This document shows, piece by piece, positions 25,647-57,379 of a stretch of DNA of 58,853 nt (position 1 is its first letter; each line of letters starts with the position of its first letter). The stretch lies in the IMG/VR virus record IMGVR_UViG_3300023184_006354, positions 1-58,853 of that record. The stretch is one strand, 5' to 3'. A program made the translations under genes and the position numbers. Source of the DNA: a virus. The notes beneath the pieces were generated by a model. The model was not told the DNA's origin and did not search any database. It saw only the letters and a list, made by a program, of their open reading frames with translations.

Positions 25647-25675
25647 ATTATAGTTGATAAATTATAATTAATCAA
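25647..25675 (-). promoter_or_regulatory. Internal promoter of the glycan locus, before neuB
   Basis: Minus strand TTGATT (25675-25670), 17 bp, TATAAT (25652-25647), 5 nt, ATG at 25641. Confidence 0.65.
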
Positions 25676-27413
25676 AACTTTCTGAAATAAACATGTCGGT
25701 CAATTCTCCAGGAATTATTCTACCATTATCATCTATGCCCTTTGGCACTACTTTTGGTTCAAAAGCTTCATTATCGTGAGCAAATATTTCACATAATATA
25801 GGCTCATTTAAAGATAATGCTTTTTTAATATTTTCATCTATTTGATTATTGGTTTTTATAGATAAATACTTAATATCAAAAGCATAAGCTATTTTTTCAA
25901 AAGAAGGAATTGATACTCCATTATTTGGGCCAGAAGCATATTCATTTCCGTTAAAGAATAATTTTTGCGTTTGTTTGATTGAGAAATATCCATTATTATT
26001 GATAATAAATAATTTAATAGGAAGATTATAATACTTCAAAGTCTGAAGTTCTTGCAGATTCATCATAATACTTCCATCACCTTCTATACAGATTATTTCT
26101 TTTTTATTATTTGCAAAGCATGCTCCAATAGCTGCTGGCAATCCATATCCCATAGAAGCACATCCAGTATTAGTAAAGAGTCTTTGATTTTCTTTTAATC
26201 TTATAGATTGTTGAGTAACTACATGTGCTGCGCCATCGCTTGTGACAATTGGAATATTAGTTGGTAAAATTTTGCTTAATTTTTCTATGAAAACATATAT
26301 GCTAGTTTTATCTTTTAAATTATAATGCTTATCAAAAACAAAACGATCTTTATTTCTTAAATTTTTACAATACTCTATCCATTCTTTAATTTCTGGTTTT
26401 TGAATTGATTTATTGATTAAAGTTAAGAATTTCTTTATATCTGTATTAACTTTAATATCTATATTGAACTTGTGTTTGTCTATTTCATTTTGATCTATAT
26501 CAACTATAACTTTTTTAGCATTTTTAGCAAATAAATTTAAATTATATCCTGTAGTTTTTAATATAAGTCTAGAGCCTAAGACCAACAATAAATCACATTC
26601 TTGAATGATTTGATTTGATGATCTTTGCCCTAAGATTCCATGTCTGCCAGCGTAATACGGATAACTCTCATTTACTGTATCTATTGCGCTATGGCAACTA
26701 GTCATAATTGGTATTTGAGTTATTGATAAAAATTTATTTAAATCATCTATAGCATTAGCAGATCTAACTCCACTTCCTACTACTATTAAAGGTTTATTAG
26801 CAGATTTAATTAAAGATAAAATATTTTCTATATCAGAAACCTTGATTGTTTCGTTAATTTGATCTGGAATAAAAGATTCTAATTTATCTGGATTAATGTC
26901 TGATCCTTGTATATCTAAAGGTATATCAATCCAAACTGGTCCTTTTCTTCCATTCGTAGCTTCATAATAAGCTCTTTCTAAATGGTATCTTATTGTATTT
27001 TTGTCAGTAATCATTACTGCGTATTTTGTCATTGGTTTTACAGATTCAATAATTGGATATTCTTGATCTCCTATTTGTCTGCATTTAGTATTTTGAATAG
27101 TTTGATTTAAACTAACTTGTCCAGATAAAAATAAACAAGGAATAGAATCTGTCCAACATCCAAATACTCCATTCAAAGCATTAATACCTCCAGGCCCAGT
27201 AGTTACCAATGCAACTCCTATATTTCCATTTATTCTAGAATAACCTTCTGCAGCAATAGCAGAAGCTTGTTCATGATGATTGCATATATATGTTATATTT
27301 TTATTTTTTCCTAATGAATCGATTAAATGTATGCATCCTCCACCTGAGACAGTAAATATATCTTTTACTCCCTTTGAAACTAAAAACTCAATAATGAAAT
27401 CTGAAACTTTCAT
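25668..27413 (-). CDS. Thiamine-diphosphate enzyme, acetolactate-synthase/YerE-like (581 aa)
   Basis: Three-domain TPP enzyme: FTVSGGGCIHLIDSLG, the catalytic Glu region CNHHEQASAIAAEGYSR, VTTGPGGINALNG, then the TPP/Mg motif CIEGDGSIMMNLQEL ... INNNGYFSIKQ. Although similar to IlvB, it lies in a sugar locus with an RfbH-type dehydrase; in yersiniose A synthesis YerE adds a two-carbon unit from pyruvate to a CDP-3,6-dideoxy-4-keto sugar, so a branched-sugar role is a good candidate. ATG at 27413 lies in a TAATG overlap with the preceding stop; an earlier TTG is less likely. Confidence 0.85.
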   Translation of the reverse strand: MKVSDFIIEFLVSKGVKDIFTVSGGGCIHLIDSLGKNKNITYICNHHEQASAIAAEGYSRINGNIGVALVTTGPGGINALNGVFGCWTDSIPCLFLSGQVSLNQTIQNTKCRQIGDQEYPIIESVKPMTKYAVMITDKNTIRYHLERAYYEATNGRKGPVWIDIPLDIQGSDINPDKLESFIPDQINETIKVSDIENILSLIKSANKPLIVVGSGVRSANAIDDLNKFLSITQIPIMTSCHSAIDTVNESYPYYAGRHGILGQRSSNQIIQECDLLLVLGSRLILKTTGYNLNLFAKNAKKVIVDIDQNEIDKHKFNIDIKVNTDIKKFLTLINKSIQKPEIKEWIEYCKNLRNKDRFVFDKHYNLKDKTSIYVFIEKLSKILPTNIPIVTSDGAAHVVTQQSIRLKENQRLFTNTGCASMGYGLPAAIGACFANNKKEIICIEGDGSIMMNLQELQTLKYYNLPIKLFIINNNGYFSIKQTQKLFFNGNEYASGPNNGVSIPSFEKIAYAFDIKYLSIKTNNQIDENIKKALSLNEPILCEIFAHDNEAFEPKVVPKGIDDNGRIIPGELTDMFISESFD

Positions 27414-28369
27414 TACCAAATGAATTTATTTTTATAATAATTAACAATTGGAGAAATCTCTTTATCAAAAATTGCTTCAGATTTCCAGCCTAACATTTTT
27501 AATTTATCATCATTTAGCGCGTATCTTACGTCTTGTCCTGCTCTTGAAAATGAGAAGTCAACATAATCATTAATATTAAAATCGCTAGAATTTAAAAATG
27601 CACTAATTATTTTTCTTGCAGTTTCTAGATTTGACTGTTCAAAACCACCTGATATATTATATATTTGATTTTCTTCTTGTGAATCTATTATTTTTATTAC
27701 AGCTTTGGCTGTATCTTCAGCATGCAACCAATTTCTAATTGGTGTTCCGTGATTATGCAAAGGAATTTTTCTTCCCAAATTTAAATATTTACATGTTTTA
27801 GGGATAAGTTTTTCTACATATTGACCTATTCCATAATTATTTGTTGGTCTTACTATAATATATTTAAGATTATAAGTTCTAGCCCAAGCTAAAACTAACA
27901 TATCTGCCGCAGCTTTTGTTGCGGAATATGGATTGGATGGTTTTAAAATATCCGTTTCTATATGTATGCCACTGCTAATATCTCCATATACTTCGTCTGT
28001 ACTAAAATGTAATAGTATTGGTTTTTTATTTGATTCTTGTCTATAATTTTTTATTAAATTTAAAATATTATGTACGCCATTAACATTTGAATGAATGAAG
28101 TCATCACTATTAGTTATAGAATTTCCAACATGAGTTTCTGCTGCAGTATTAATAATATAATCGCAATCATATAAAAATTTAAGATCATTTATATCACAAT
28201 GTACGAATGAAAAATTTATATATTTATTAAATTCTTCTAGTAAATCTTTATTCGCTGCATATGTGACTTTATCCACACCTTTTACATACCATCCTTTTTT
28301 CAAGCAAAGTCTGGTTATGTATGAACCAATAAATCCAAGACATCCAGTTATATATACAATTTTATTCAT
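27413..28369 (-). CDS. NDP-glucose 4,6-dehydratase-like SDR (RfbB-type), 318 aa
   Basis: Extended SDR: ITGCLGFIGSYITRL, NTAAETHVGNSI, HFSTDEVYGDI, NPYSATKAAADMLV (Tyr-x-x-x-Lys), RPTNNYG, PLHNHGTPIRNWLH. The pattern is that of dTDP-glucose 4,6-dehydratases, with HVGNSI in place of the usual HVDRSI. Produces a 4-keto-6-deoxy nucleotide sugar that RfbH-like and TPP enzymes could use. Confidence 0.87.
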   Translation of the reverse strand: MNKIVYITGCLGFIGSYITRLCLKKGWYVKGVDKVTYAANKDLLEEFNKYINFSFVHCDINDLKFLYDCDYIINTAAETHVGNSITNSDDFIHSNVNGVHNILNLIKNYRQESNKKPILLHFSTDEVYGDISSGIHIETDILKPSNPYSATKAAADMLVLAWARTYNLKYIIVRPTNNYGIGQYVEKLIPKTCKYLNLGRKIPLHNHGTPIRNWLHAEDTAKAVIKIIDSQEENQIYNISGGFEQSNLETARKIISAFLNSSDFNINDYVDFSFSRAGQDVRYALNDDKLKMLGWKSEAIFDKEISPIVNYYKNKFIW

Positions 28370-42989: not shown

Positions 42990-43049
42990 ATGGAATTAAA
43001 ATTTATTTTGATTATTCTATTTTCAGTTTATTTGTTTTATAAATTATGA
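42990..43049 (+). CDS. 19-residue membrane micropeptide
   Basis: ATG six bases after a -10 box, reading MELKFILIILFSVYLFYKL, then TGA overlapping the dCMP deaminase ATG. The peptide is a single transmembrane segment with a charged residue at each end. It may be a true micropeptide or serve as a leader for coupled translation of the deaminase. Confidence 0.6.
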   Translation: MELKFILIILFSVYLFYKL

Positions 43050-43456
43050 GAAGAATATCATTTGAAGAGTTAGCAATTAATATTGCTACAGAATGTGCCA
43101 AAAGATCAGAAGATCTTCATAAAAAGGTAGGATGCTGTATTTTGAATAAAGAAGGCAGGGTGTTATCGACTGGATACAATGGACTTTTACCAAAAGTAAA
43201 TATGGACGAAAGCTTTTGGCTAGATCGAAATTTAAGAAGAAAATACGTCATACATGCTGAGATAAATGCTTTATCAAGAATAAAAAGAGAAGAACAACCT
43301 TACATTTTAGCTACAACTTTATTACCCTGTTCTGCTTGCGCTTCAAATATAGCCTCATATGGAATTAAAAAAGTGATTTATAAAGAAGACTATCATATGG
43401 ATAAAGGATCTTTTGACATTTTTAATTTCTATAAAATTGAACTTATTAAACTTTAA
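43046..43456 (+). CDS. dCMP deaminase (cytidine/deoxycytidylate deaminase family, 136 aa)
   Basis: Zinc deaminase motifs: VIHAEINAL (His-Ala-Glu) and PCSACASNI (Pro-Cys-x-x-Cys). KKVGCCILNKEGRVLSTGYNG precedes them, as in T4-type dCMP deaminases, though it is shorter than T4 Cd. Would give dUMP for ThyX. TGA/ATG overlap with the micropeptide and TAATG with the next gene. Confidence 0.9.
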   Translation: MRRISFEELAINIATECAKRSEDLHKKVGCCILNKEGRVLSTGYNGLLPKVNMDESFWLDRNLRRKYVIHAEINALSRIKREEQPYILATTLLPCSACASNIASYGIKKVIYKEDYHMDKGSFDIFNFYKIELIKL

Positions 43457-44729: not shown

Positions 44730-45836
44730 ATGAAACAAGAGTTTAAAGAAGCACTCAGCTACGACGATATTTCACTTTTACCAAATTTTTCAGACATTTC
44801 ATCCAGAAAAGAAGTTGACACAACTACAAAAATAAGCAGAAACAAATACATTGATATACCTATTGTTCTTTCTCCAATGGATACAGTTTCTTCTGTAAAA
44901 TCTTGCGTTAAGATAAATAAAATAGGTGGAGCTGGAGTTTTACATCGTTTTATGTCCATAGAAGAGCAAATGAAAAAAGCCAAAGTAATTAGAGATGAGA
45001 GTAATTTTTGTATTACAGCTATTGGTCTAAAGGACGCAGTAGAAAGAATTAGAGATACTTCATTATATACTGATATTTATTTTGTAGATACAGCAAATGG
45101 ATTAGCTAAAAATGTAGAAGATTTTTTAAGATGGTATAAAACATCTGGATACAAGCAGGATATTATTGTTGGCAACACTTTGACAAAAGAAAGCGTTTAT
45201 AGACTTGCTAATTTAAAAGCGGATGGTTTTAGACATTTAATTGGTCCAGGTTCTATGTGTTTAACTCAAGTTAAAACTGGGATTGGTTGTCCAAGTTTGA
45301 CTGGAAATTTTTATGCTTGGCAAGCCGTAAGAAATTGGGAGTTATCACAAGTAGATTTATTTAAACAAGACGAACCTAATCCAGAGCATAGACCAAGCAT
45401 ACTTGCTGATGGTGGTATTCGTTATCCAAAGGATTTAGTTAAAGCTATAGCAAGTGGTTGTGATGCTGTAATTTGCGGAAGAATTTTTGCTGGATTACTA
45501 GATACGACTGATGATGAAAATATTATTGAAAAAGACGGAAAAATATATGCAAAATATAGAGGAATGGCCAGTCAAGACGTAGTGGAAGATTATGAGTTAT
45601 ACGATGGAACAAAAAAGAATCTTTTCGTAGAAGGAGATAATACTTTGATCCCAATTATAGAGAATAAAACTATAGAAGATATTGTATATGATTTTACAAA
45701 TGGTCTTAGAAGTGCAATGAGTTATCTTGGTTTTAGGTCTATAGATGAAATGCGAGGTGGATTATGGACGAATAAGATACGAGCAGTAAGAAATAGTCCA
45801 AATAGCATGTACGAAGGATTTGCTCATGGAAAATGA
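44730..45836 (+). CDS. IMP dehydrogenase / GMP reductase family enzyme, CBS-less (368 aa)
   Basis: TIM-barrel IMPDH/GMPR: ALSYDDISLLPNFSD, PIVLSPMDTVSS, GGAGVLHRFMSIEEQ, the Cys loop GPGSMCLTQVKTGIGCPS, ILADGGIRYPKDL, ICGRIFAG and YRGMASQDV. There are no CBS domains, as in GMP reductase and some short IMPDHs, so IMP-to-XMP versus GMP-to-IMP cannot be decided by eye. With the PurA enzyme 2 kb downstream, a GMPR would provide a GMP-to-AMP route. Confidence 0.87.
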   Translation: MKQEFKEALSYDDISLLPNFSDISSRKEVDTTTKISRNKYIDIPIVLSPMDTVSSVKSCVKINKIGGAGVLHRFMSIEEQMKKAKVIRDESNFCITAIGLKDAVERIRDTSLYTDIYFVDTANGLAKNVEDFLRWYKTSGYKQDIIVGNTLTKESVYRLANLKADGFRHLIGPGSMCLTQVKTGIGCPSLTGNFYAWQAVRNWELSQVDLFKQDEPNPEHRPSILADGGIRYPKDLVKAIASGCDAVICGRIFAGLLDTTDDENIIEKDGKIYAKYRGMASQDVVEDYELYDGTKKNLFVEGDNTLIPIIENKTIEDIVYDFTNGLRSAMSYLGFRSIDEMRGGLWTNKIRAVRNSPNSMYEGFAHGK

Positions 45837-47550: not shown

Positions 47551-47795
47551 TGGAGCAAGATAATCAACAAGAATCGGCTGAAGTTGGACTATATGTTCAA
47601 CCTTATTTTAGAGGACCAATTCGAAGATTAGCTCCAAAAATGCAAAGAAATGATCTTTGCCAAATCAATAATAAAAAATTTAAAAAATGTTGTGGTGCAG
47701 ATGGAAGCAATTTTTGTAAAAAACTTCTTGGCGATTATTTGAATGAACTTCAAAAAGCTCAAGAACAATTAACAAAAAATGATCAAAGCAGTTGA
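47550..47795 (+). CDS. SEC-C-like zinc motif protein, degenerate (81 aa)
   Basis: RNDLCQINNKKFKKCCG matches the SEC-C zinc motif (usually RNDPCPCGSGKKYKKCCG) with one Cys lost. The rest is helical and charged (LLGDYLNELQKAQEQL). Co-transcribed with the LSm-like gene and overlapping purA. Confidence 0.68.
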   Translation: MEQDNQQESAEVGLYVQPYFRGPIRRLAPKMQRNDLCQINNKKFKKCCGADGSNFCKKLLGDYLNELQKAQEQLTKNDQSS

Positions 47796-48771
47796 TATTA
47801 TCTTTGGATTAGCTTGGGGCGATGAAGGCAAAGGCAAGATAAGCAATGCAATATCTAAAAATTATGATATTGTTTGTCGCTGGAATGGTGGTCCCAATGC
47901 AGGTCACACAGTTTATCTTAATGATAAAAAATATAAAACTCATCTCATTCCTTGTGGCGTTTTTCAAAATAAACTTAGTGTCATCGGCCCAAATTGCGTT
48001 ATCAATATTGATAAATTTTTTGATGAGATAGAATATCTAAAAAGAGAGGGATTTGACACATCCTTAATTAAAGTAAGTCCCAAAGCTCACATTATTACTG
48101 AAAAGCATATTCAGTACGATCTTAAATTCTTAAAACCTAAACTCGGAACTACTGGACAAGGAATTGCCCCAGCTTATGCTGATAAAGCCCTACGAACTGG
48201 TAAACTTGCTGGAAATTATTTAGATAAACAGTATCTTTGGGATGGAGAGCTTTATGGAGAAATTCTTTGCGAAGGCGCGCAAAGCTTTTGGTTAGATTTA
48301 AATTATGGAGATTATCCATATGTTACAAGTAGTGAGACTCTACCATACTCTGCTTGTTCTTTGGGCTTTAGTCCCAAAAAAATAAGAGAGATAATTGGAG
48401 TAGCAAAAATTTACGATACAAAAAGTGGAGTAGATCCATTATTTCCAGAATCATTGTGGCTCGATGAAGAATTAAATAAAATAATAGATTTAGGTAAAGA
48501 GTACGGGACAACAACTGGCAGAAAAAGACTTGTCAACTGGCTTAATTTTAATAAATTATTAAATGCGATAAGAATATCTGGAACAACTAAATTAATAATC
48601 AATAAATGCGATATCCTGCAAGAGTTAAATATATTTAAAATAAGACTAGATAATGAACTTGGACCTAATTTTATTAAGTTTAATGATTTTGATAATATGA
48701 AAGAGTATATATCTAGAGAATTAAAAGATTATTGCGATGTAGTATTTTCTGGTGACAAAAGTATAATTTAA
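47779..48771 (+). CDS. purA: Adenylosuccinate synthetase (330 aa)
   Basis: PurA fold: GLAWGDEGKGKISNA (catalytic Asp present), NGGPNAGHTVYL, GTTGQGIAPAYADKALR (IMP site), GAQSFWLDL, YPYVTSSETLPYSA, and TTGRKRLVNWL. Shorter than the bacterial housekeeping enzyme, near the size of compact phage forms. Joins Asp to IMP in AMP synthesis. The PurZ of 2-aminoadenine phages has a changed catalytic Asp; here it is kept, so ordinary PurA activity is likelier. Confidence 0.92.
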   Translation: MIKAVDIIFGLAWGDEGKGKISNAISKNYDIVCRWNGGPNAGHTVYLNDKKYKTHLIPCGVFQNKLSVIGPNCVINIDKFFDEIEYLKREGFDTSLIKVSPKAHIITEKHIQYDLKFLKPKLGTTGQGIAPAYADKALRTGKLAGNYLDKQYLWDGELYGEILCEGAQSFWLDLNYGDYPYVTSSETLPYSACSLGFSPKKIREIIGVAKIYDTKSGVDPLFPESLWLDEELNKIIDLGKEYGTTTGRKRLVNWLNFNKLLNAIRISGTTKLIINKCDILQELNIFKIRLDNELGPNFIKFNDFDNMKEYISRELKDYCDVVFSGDKSII

Positions 48772-49357: not shown

Positions 49358-49389
49358 GTAAAAAATGCAGACACAGGGATTCGTTTGCT

Positions 49390-49809
49390 TGGACCCGAGA
49401 GGAATTGAACCTCTGTCTTTTAAAAATCTAAATTAAAATACTACAAGTTTAGTTTATTCCGTTAGTTCGCTAAAGAGTCGAATAAACAATTGGTTTTTAG
49501 CTATTCATTTAATAATAAATTTAACCTTGGTCAAATTCATCCCTAATAATTCTTATAAAAAATCAAATGAAAAGGATTATATAAGAATACATCTAATAAC
49601 GCAATATTCCAGTAGATGTGTCGTGGATATCACGCTGTAACTTAGGCTACAGATTCGGTCATCTCAACAAGAGAAACTCTTGCAGAAATATGACCTTTAT
49701 ATTTTGCTGTTTTGGCAGTTAATATAAGTGAAACTTTTTTAGGAGTCCTCGATTCAACCTCCACTTGCATTTCAATTTATTTTCTTAAAATCGAAACCAT
49801 TACGGGCCC
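49390..49809 (-). ncRNA. ssrA: Transfer-messenger RNA (tmRNA)
   Basis: The two ends form an alanine-type tRNA acceptor stem: 5' GGGCCCG (49809-49803) pairs with CGGGTCC (49397-49391) including the G3-U70 wobble that specifies alanine, discriminator A at 49390. The T arm is AGAGG-TTCAATT-CCTCT, and the 5' side has the tmRNA-specific TGGTTTCGA. The resume region AACTGCCAAAAC aligns with B. subtilis AACTGGCAAAAC, so the resume codon is GCC. The tag frame reads AKTAKYKGHI ... VEMTESVA (24 residues) and ends in TAA inside a CTGTA/TACAG hairpin. CCA is not encoded. Tags stalled peptides and frees ribosomes. One-piece, so not the split alphaproteobacterial form. Confidence 0.95.
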
Positions 49810-54776: not shown

Positions 54777-55116
54777 TAAAATTAAATTTTTTGGCTTTTA
54801 TTTTTATGATTGTGATTATGATAAAAAAAATCATAAATTTAATATACTTTTAGCAGGAAGCAAAAGTGCAGATGAAGGCTTTATATTAAGTCAATTCACA
54901 TCACGAGCAGATATAGAAGAAAATACAAATTATGCTTATCATGCAATAAATCTAAAAATGCTTCATGAAATATTAGATGAAATTTTTAATAAAATAAAAA
55001 ATCCTAAAAATAAATTCATTTTAATGTGTGAAGATGATATAGATATGGATAAAATGACCAATATACTTGACAAATGGAGAAATGATATTATAATGTTAAA
55101 TAGGGAAAATGTTTAA
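54763..55116 (+). CDS. Hypothetical protein (117 aa)
   Basis: Starts at the ATG at 54763 (IISNKIKFFGFYFYDCDY), overlapping the DUF6065 stop; an earlier ATG at 54724 is inside that gene. Compact alpha/beta with IFNKIKNPKNKFILMCEDD. The tRNA promoter is embedded in its last 50 bases. Confidence 0.55.
   Translation: MIISNKIKFFGFYFYDCDYDKKNHKFNILLAGSKSADEGFILSQFTSRADIEENTNYAYHAINLKMLHEILDEIFNKIKNPKNKFILMCEDDIDMDKMTNILDKWRNDIIMLNRENV
55067..55094 (+). promoter_or_regulatory. Promoter of the tRNA pair
   Basis: TTGACA (55067-55072), 16 bp, TATAAT (55089-55094). Inside the end of the 117-aa gene; start expected about 20 nt before tRNA-Asn. Confidence 0.8.
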
Positions 55117-55119
55117 TTT

Positions 55120-55191
55120 TCCCAAATAGCTCAATGGTAGAGCACTTCGCTGTTAACGAGGCTGTTCTAGGTTCAAATCCTAGTTTGGGAG
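55120..55191 (+). tRNA. tRNA-Asn (GTT)
   Basis: Acceptor TCCCAAA/TTTGGGA, D arm GCTC...GAGC, anticodon stem CTTCG/CGAGG with loop CTGTTAA (anticodon GTT), T arm CTAGG-TTCAAAT-CCTAG, discriminator G. No encoded CCA. Confidence 0.96.
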
Positions 55192-55193
55192 CT

Positions 55194-55280
55194 GGGGCGA
55201 TGGTTGAGCGGTTTAAAACAGCAGTTTACTAAACTGCCGATGGAGAAATCCATTCGTAGGTTCGAATCCTACTCGCCCCG
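55194..55280 (+). tRNA. tRNA-Ser with anticodon ACT
   Basis: Acceptor GGGGCGA/TCGCCCC, D arm with GTT/AAC, anticodon stem GCAGT/ACTGC with loop TTACTAA, so the anticodon is ACT (reads AGU). A long variable arm (GATGG/CCATT stem) marks a type II tRNA, and T arm GTAGG/CCTAC. The usual bacterial form is GCT; position 34 is A here. No encoded CCA. Two bases separate it from tRNA-Asn. Confidence 0.9.
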
Positions 55281-55324
55281 AAATTTATTAGAGATTTTTT
55301 ATTGTTTCTTATATAATAATTAAT

Positions 55325-55653: not shown

Positions 55654-55681
55654 TTGACAAAGTTTATATATTCTATATAAT
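55654..55681 (+). promoter_or_regulatory. Leaderless promoter for the 59-aa gene
   Basis: TTGACA (55654-55659), 16 bp, TATAAT (55676-55681), 6 nt, ATG at 55688. Confidence 0.83.
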
Positions 55682-56479: not shown

Positions 56480-57379
56480 ATGAGAAAAGGAGTTTGTTGT
56501 ATTGTATTAAGTCTAACTGAACAAGATAATCCTATCAAGTTCAATACTATGACTTATGCTCGTTTTTCTGCTATGTCTAGATCAGAAGCGTTATCTACTC
56601 TTTCTTCTAGAATATTAAACAATATGCTTACTACATATCACTATATCAAATATTGTGCTGACCATAATCATACTTATAGAATTTCTTCTGATCTATTTCC
56701 TCTTATTACTTATGACAAAGCAAATGTAAAGCTAGAAGATTTACCAGACTATCATAAAATATTAGTATCATTTGATAGTATCAAACATCTTATTCAATCT
56801 AGGAATGTAAGAGTATCTTGCCATCCTAGTGAATTTAATGTTCTTGCAAGTGACAACGAAAATGCAATCACTAAAACAATCAAAGAATTAAATCACTATG
56901 GTTGGTTTATGACTCAAATTGGTTGTCCACTAAACTATGATGCACCTATGAATATGCACATACATAATTCCAAGGGCAATCTAAATGATATAGTAAAGAA
57001 GTTTATGAGCAACTTTCAAAGACTATCAGATGATGTTAAGTCTAGATTAGTAATTGAGAATGATGATAAAGATACTTGCTGGTCAGTTAAGAAACTTATG
57101 AAGTATTTTCATTCTGTATCTAATATTCCTATTACCTTTGATTATCTTCACCACAAATGCCATCCAGATAATCTATCAGAGGAACAAGCATTTCATCTTG
57201 CACGAATTACTTGGGGCAATCATACTCCACTATTTCATTATTCAGAAAGCATTGATGGTCATAAGAATCCACGCAAACACGCAGACTACGCAAAGTCCTT
57301 GCCAAATACTTATGGTTATGATAATATAGATGTCGATTTTGAATTAAAGATGAAAGAACAATCTTTTGCTAAATTATGA
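56480..57379 (+). CDS. uvsE: UV-damage endonuclease, UvdE/UvsE family (299 aa)
   Basis: TIM-barrel UVDE: YRISSDLFPL (N-terminal strand), RVSCHPSEFNVL, MNMHIHNSKG, RLVIENDDKDTCWS and ITFDYLHHKCHP, carrying the conserved His/Glu/Asp metal ligands. Nicks next to UV photoproducts for alternative excision repair. Leaderless start, first of a short run with the next three genes. Confidence 0.93.
   Translation: MRKGVCCIVLSLTEQDNPIKFNTMTYARFSAMSRSEALSTLSSRILNNMLTTYHYIKYCADHNHTYRISSDLFPLITYDKANVKLEDLPDYHKILVSFDSIKHLIQSRNVRVSCHPSEFNVLASDNENAITKTIKELNHYGWFMTQIGCPLNYDAPMNMHIHNSKGNLNDIVKKFMSNFQRLSDDVKSRLVIENDDKDTCWSVKKLMKYFHSVSNIPITFDYLHHKCHPDNLSEEQAFHLARITWGNHTPLFHYSESIDGHKNPRKHADYAKSLPNTYGYDNIDVDFELKMKEQSFAKL

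Follow-up and report, generated by a model that had tools for sequence, protein, structure and literature searches.

The window, the whole 58,853-base stretch of a virus record analysed here (about 28% GC, with genes for tail, DNA polymerase, a DnaB-like helicase, a UvsX-like recombinase and ribonucleotide reductase), carries a well-formed tRNA-Ser gene with the anticodon ACU at 55194-55280. We consider it probable (roughly 0.7) that this is a functional phage serine tRNA belonging to a stable, recurrent class with A at position 34 (A34), which would be charged by SerRS, keep A34 unmodified and serve as an AGU reader. A 2021 review describes ANN anticodons in split boxes, Ile excepted, as universally missing, with phage data in agreement and such anticodons 'prohibited' there too (PMC8007984). 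The present data contradict that universal absence: despite its published status, tRNA-Ser(ACU) appears to be common and stably inherited in environmental phages. Chlorella virus ATCV-1 offers a viral precedent: its listed tRNA-Ser ACU (PMC4810235, Table 1) shares amino acid, anticodon and viral encoding with the phage gene but belongs to a virus of a eukaryotic alga and is likened to it by listing, not by sequence. No phage tRNA-Ser ACU or ACT beyond ATCV-1 was found in the open-licence literature, where bracketed anticodons are unsearchable and an earlier phage report is possible. This opens a long-standing question to testing: which of three factors, recognition by the synthetase, editing by TadA or the fidelity of decoding, bars A34.

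The gene lies on the plus strand and was called tRNA-Ser(act) by ARAGORN (55193-55281) and matched by Rfam RF00005 at 55194-55280 (57.9 bits, E 6e-10), which bears out the first-pass annotation of a serine tRNA with ACU at this place. Both support a tRNA fold with a long variable arm; position 73 is G and CCA is not encoded. The anticodon A-C-T (positions 34-36) occupies 55229-55231, with A34 at 55229, within the loop TTACTAA (55227-55233). The predicted fold energy was -35.5 kcal/mol compared with -20.6 kcal/mol for shuffles (z = -5.6). Acceptor, T and variable arms are present in the minimum-energy fold but textbook D and anticodon arms are absent, and support for the cloverleaf therefore comes from ARAGORN and Rfam. 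A tRNA-Asn(GUU) on the same strand (55120-55191) ends two bases before the tRNA-Ser, and the pair was found again in part of the phage family. A perfect sigma-70-like site, TTGACA-16-TATAAT (55067-55094, plus strand), lies 25 bases 5' of tRNA-Asn as a candidate promoter; an own promoter for the pair was rejected, as the site is kept in one close relative only. The window holds four perfect sites of this kind (55067-55094 and 55654-55681 on the plus strand, 42961 and 13187 on the minus strand), two of them within 600 bases around the tRNA pair.

A search of IMG/VR with the nearby UvsE-like gene (56480-57379) brought in 54 related loci. All 44 family members with a tRNA-Ser (43 relatives and the window) had ACU and none had GCU, the G34 of the tRNA-Ser(GCU) isoacceptor being absent throughout. 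Because A34 is shared by family contigs that are independent of one another, a sequencing error at position 34, which had been named as grounds for abandoning the assignment, is excluded. The 44 aligned tRNAs comprised 34 distinct sequences. On the UvsE-gene tree (39 taxa, length 2.8), 39 of 90 tRNA columns changed, with 146 inferred changes, and the changed positions included anticodon-stem pairs and position 32. A34 underwent zero changes and the other anticodon positions were constant too, which points to constraint on the whole anticodon together with no reversion to G34.

Beyond this family, IMG/VR was scanned with a tRNA-Ser pattern that left position 34 open to A or G and required GAGTGG in the D arm. 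Among the matches listed, 22 of 108 tRNA-Ser(RCU) had A34 (22 ACU, 86 GCU). Dereplication at 80-95% identity left 12-16 A34 and 46-71 G34 clusters and zero mixed ones among the matches listed, an A34 share of 16-21% that is an estimate for the GAGTGG-bearing subset. A second, A34-selected pattern gave 113 loci, and ARAGORN called all 107 newly fetched ones tRNA-Ser(ACU). Most A34 loci, arrays of 10-27 tRNAs included, lacked a GCU gene; ACU and GCU occurred together in four. ACU was absent from 17 cultured-phage regions drawn non-exhaustively from INPHARED matches, whose serine tRNAs read GCU or UGA, with CGA in addition in one region; this survey thus yielded no phage and host pair for laboratory use. 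Judged from these loci, tRNA-Ser(ACU) is not peculiar to the window phage: it recurs among environmental phages as a stable class, a point that the first-pass annotation had missed. Another unusual A34 tRNA, tRNA-Thr(AGU), was seen in environmental phages, at L005, L007, L013 and about 25 further viral loci; the 28 genes of this kind were picked up because the search pattern, taken as its reverse complement, also fits them.

By sequence comparison, A34 and G34 tRNAs are separate, stable and rarely interconverting lineages. With position 34 masked, the nearest A34 neighbour was at least as close as any G34 sequence for 188 of 189 distinct A34 sequences, a count biased toward A34 neighbours by the A34-selected scans that enriched the sample; for that reason more weight can be placed on the lack of near-identical pairs across the two classes, the closest A34-G34 pair showing 13 differences. 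Switches between A34 and G34 on the tRNA tree numbered about 28, compared with 121 under shuffled labels. The phage tRNA shares with bacterial and phage tRNA-Ser(GCU) its type II form and long variable arm, G1-C72, G2-C71, G30-C40 and G73, as well as AGY-box decoding and the anticodon-loop context around position 34, but has A for G at that position and at least 13 differences from the sampled GCU tRNAs.

Cells rarely have this anticodon, and the remark that ACU in a tRNA-Ser is abnormal for bacteria was right. Across 84,980 species, each represented by a single genome, a scan gave 70 A34 loci, mostly in Patescibacteria MAGs. Of 97 pattern matches in 380 sampled Patescibacteria genomes, 11 had A34 (the centre genome being one of the 11), and among 299 sampled Pseudomonadota genomes A34 occurred in one, the sample's centre genome, a Polynucleobacter. 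tRNA-Ser(ACU) is thus rare in cells, some Patescibacteria excepted. The chromosomal tRNA-Ser(ACU) of Patescibacteria has an identical anticodon and a similar anticodon arm, but often stands beside tRNA-Ser(GCU) in the same genome, inside the same 8-kb stretch, whereas most phage loci have ACU without GCU. In Polynucleobacter sp. 31A-FELB (L242, 3207-4658), tRNA-Ser(ACU) immediately precedes a phage-type integrase gene; a second Polynucleobacter genome has three A34 pattern matches, and a GCU-type match is also present in both. The Polynucleobacter tRNA may be used or carried by an integrative element. An identical tRNA-Ser(ACU) occurs in seven contigs of 58-60% GC (L240, L249, L255, L268, L293, L294 and L302) binned to unrelated bacteria (Planctomycetes, Phycisphaera, Chitinophaga), which probably represent one mis-binned phage or other mobile element.

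The occurrence of A34 in serine, with the six G34-dependent families lacking it, suggests that recognition by the synthetase is the chief obstacle. Among the matches listed, A34 was found in 0 of 171 tRNAs of the other six GNN split boxes in the same loci, versus 22 of 108 for Ser (Fisher p = 2e-10, a statistic that ignores relatedness). In a review of identity elements, G34 appears among the bacterial determinants of Cys, Tyr, His, Asp, Asn and Phe, and the anticodon plays no part in serine identity (PMC9976931). Under these published rules, charging of the six families should be lost or impaired by G34A and that of tRNA-Ser should not. The change could then persist in tRNA-Ser but would be barred from tRNA-Asn, Asp, His, Tyr, Phe and Cys, for whose synthetases G34 is a determinant, and SerRS, ignoring the anticodon, would charge tRNA-Ser(ACU) with serine. 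Bacterial serine determinants are G73, C72, G2-C71, R4-Y69, G30-C40 and C11-G24 (PMC9976931, Table 1). The window tRNA has the first five and U11-A24 in place of the last; C11-G24 is found in most relatives and U11-A24 in the window lineage, a departure that counts against this reading. The argument from G34 identity is also imperfect, as tRNA-Thr(AGU) occurs in some phages though G34 is listed for bacterial Thr. The stable inheritance of ACU is probably due to SerRS ignoring the anticodon combined with a loop that TadA does not recognise.

TadA of E. coli and K. pneumoniae edits only within UACG, in the extended form YUACGAA like the tRNA-Arg(ACG) loop, and that of S. pyogenes accepts UAMG, so that G at the third anticodon position is required in the published editing motifs (PMC11472039). 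The loop UUACUAA contains neither UACG nor UAMG: it fits YUACGAA at six of seven positions and mismatches only at position 36, which is U. Since TadA targets need G36, the enzyme would pass over A34 and leave it unmodified, and the presumption of the first-pass annotation to that effect is probably right. That near fit is also what lends some credit to an alternative we hold unlikely, in which host TadA makes inosine and the resulting ICU reads AGU, AGC and weakly AGA, gaining AGY coverage while some Arg-to-Ser misreading is tolerated. TadA-family deaminase genes are indeed present in genomes with tRNA-Ser(ACU), e.g. the two Polynucleobacter genomes. However, all published TadA targets have a third-position G (PMC11472039), and the earlier concern that inosine at 34 would endanger AGA was well placed: AGA is the main Arg codon of the window (447 AGA, 51 AGG, 77 CGN), and codon counts revealed no AGA avoidance in A34 relative to G34 loci. 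Unmodified A34 would thus suit the window phage, in which ICU could misread AGA. Compared with tRNA-Arg(ACG), which TadA converts to ICG, the phage tRNA-Ser shares U33-A34-C35 and A37-A38 but differs in U36 for G36, in its type II form and in belonging to a split box where inosine would misread AGA. Protection by a co-encoded tRNA-Arg(UCU) was rejected, this tRNA being unenriched with A34, as was a phage-encoded TadA, the deaminase at 43046-43456 fitting a dCMP deaminase instead.

Unmodified A34 would pair Watson-Crick with AGU, and host tRNA-Ser(GCU) would keep reading AGC, leaving the phage tRNA as a dedicated AGU reader. Codon use argues only weakly for a benefit. The abundance of AGT noted in the first-pass annotation holds as far as counts go (258 AGT and 152 AGC, with three consecutive AGT at 1172-1180), but AGU makes up 63% of AGY, below the 83% U-ending share of the window's other two-fold codons. 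With other two-fold codons controlled, AGU:AGC was equal in A34 and G34 loci (beta 0.03, se 0.10; loci phylogenetically non-independent), which gives a pure codon-supply benefit no support. AGU reached 18.8 per 1000 codons in A34 and 16.2 in G34 loci, a modest difference between non-independent loci.

Persistence of A34 against a one-step reversion suggests that the class differs in function. It is about an even bet that phages and some Patescibacteria keep a second, ancient class of AGY serine tRNA with unmodified A34 in a split box, the difference lying in AGU decoding or in immunity from a GCU-directed host factor. A specific form of the latter, suggested by analogy but in our view improbable, is that A34 evades a host anticodon nuclease or toxin recognising GCU and that the phage tRNA replaces tRNA-Ser lost to defence. 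The rarity of A34-to-G34 reversion would be expected under a penalty on G34, altered anticodon loops have been suggested as a way for phage tRNAs to escape defences that cleave tRNA (PMC10264068), and retron effectors can be countered by phage tRNAs (PMC11555353). Yet the literature consulted names no GCU-specific anticodon nuclease, and phage tRNA-Ser(gct) is described as the serine tRNA that nucleases leave alone (PMC10264068). Neutral G-to-A drift in AT-rich phages, tolerated because charging by SerRS does not depend on the anticodon and AGC is read by host tRNA-Ser(GCU), agrees with the slightly AT-richer A34 loci (median GC 0.37 vs 0.41 among the matches listed) and with the lack of a codon-ratio signal between A34 and G34 loci, but is very unlikely, as it predicts frequent interconversion and near-identical pairs where switches are rare, even the closest pair is well separated and A34 is invariant throughout the phage family.

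Several other features of the window stand apart from the tRNA pair. A phage-encoded tmRNA (49389-49809, minus strand; Rfam 94.8 bits) has an unusual predicted tag, AKTAKYKGHISARVSLVEMTESVA, with an ending other than the common LAA, and G3-U70 in its acceptor stem; G3-U70 is the alanine determinant. The adenylosuccinate synthetase-like gene at 47779-48771 (plus strand) bears the PHROGs label 2-aminoadenylosuccinate synthetase (PurZ), but NCBIfam scores its product far higher as PurA than as PurZ (260 bits against 102), which leaves a 2-aminoadenine genome as no more than a possibility for this phage. Two metabolic genes are unusual given the size of the phage: an acetolactate synthase-like gene (25668-27419, minus strand) and an IMP dehydrogenase/GMP reductase-like gene (44730-45836, plus strand).
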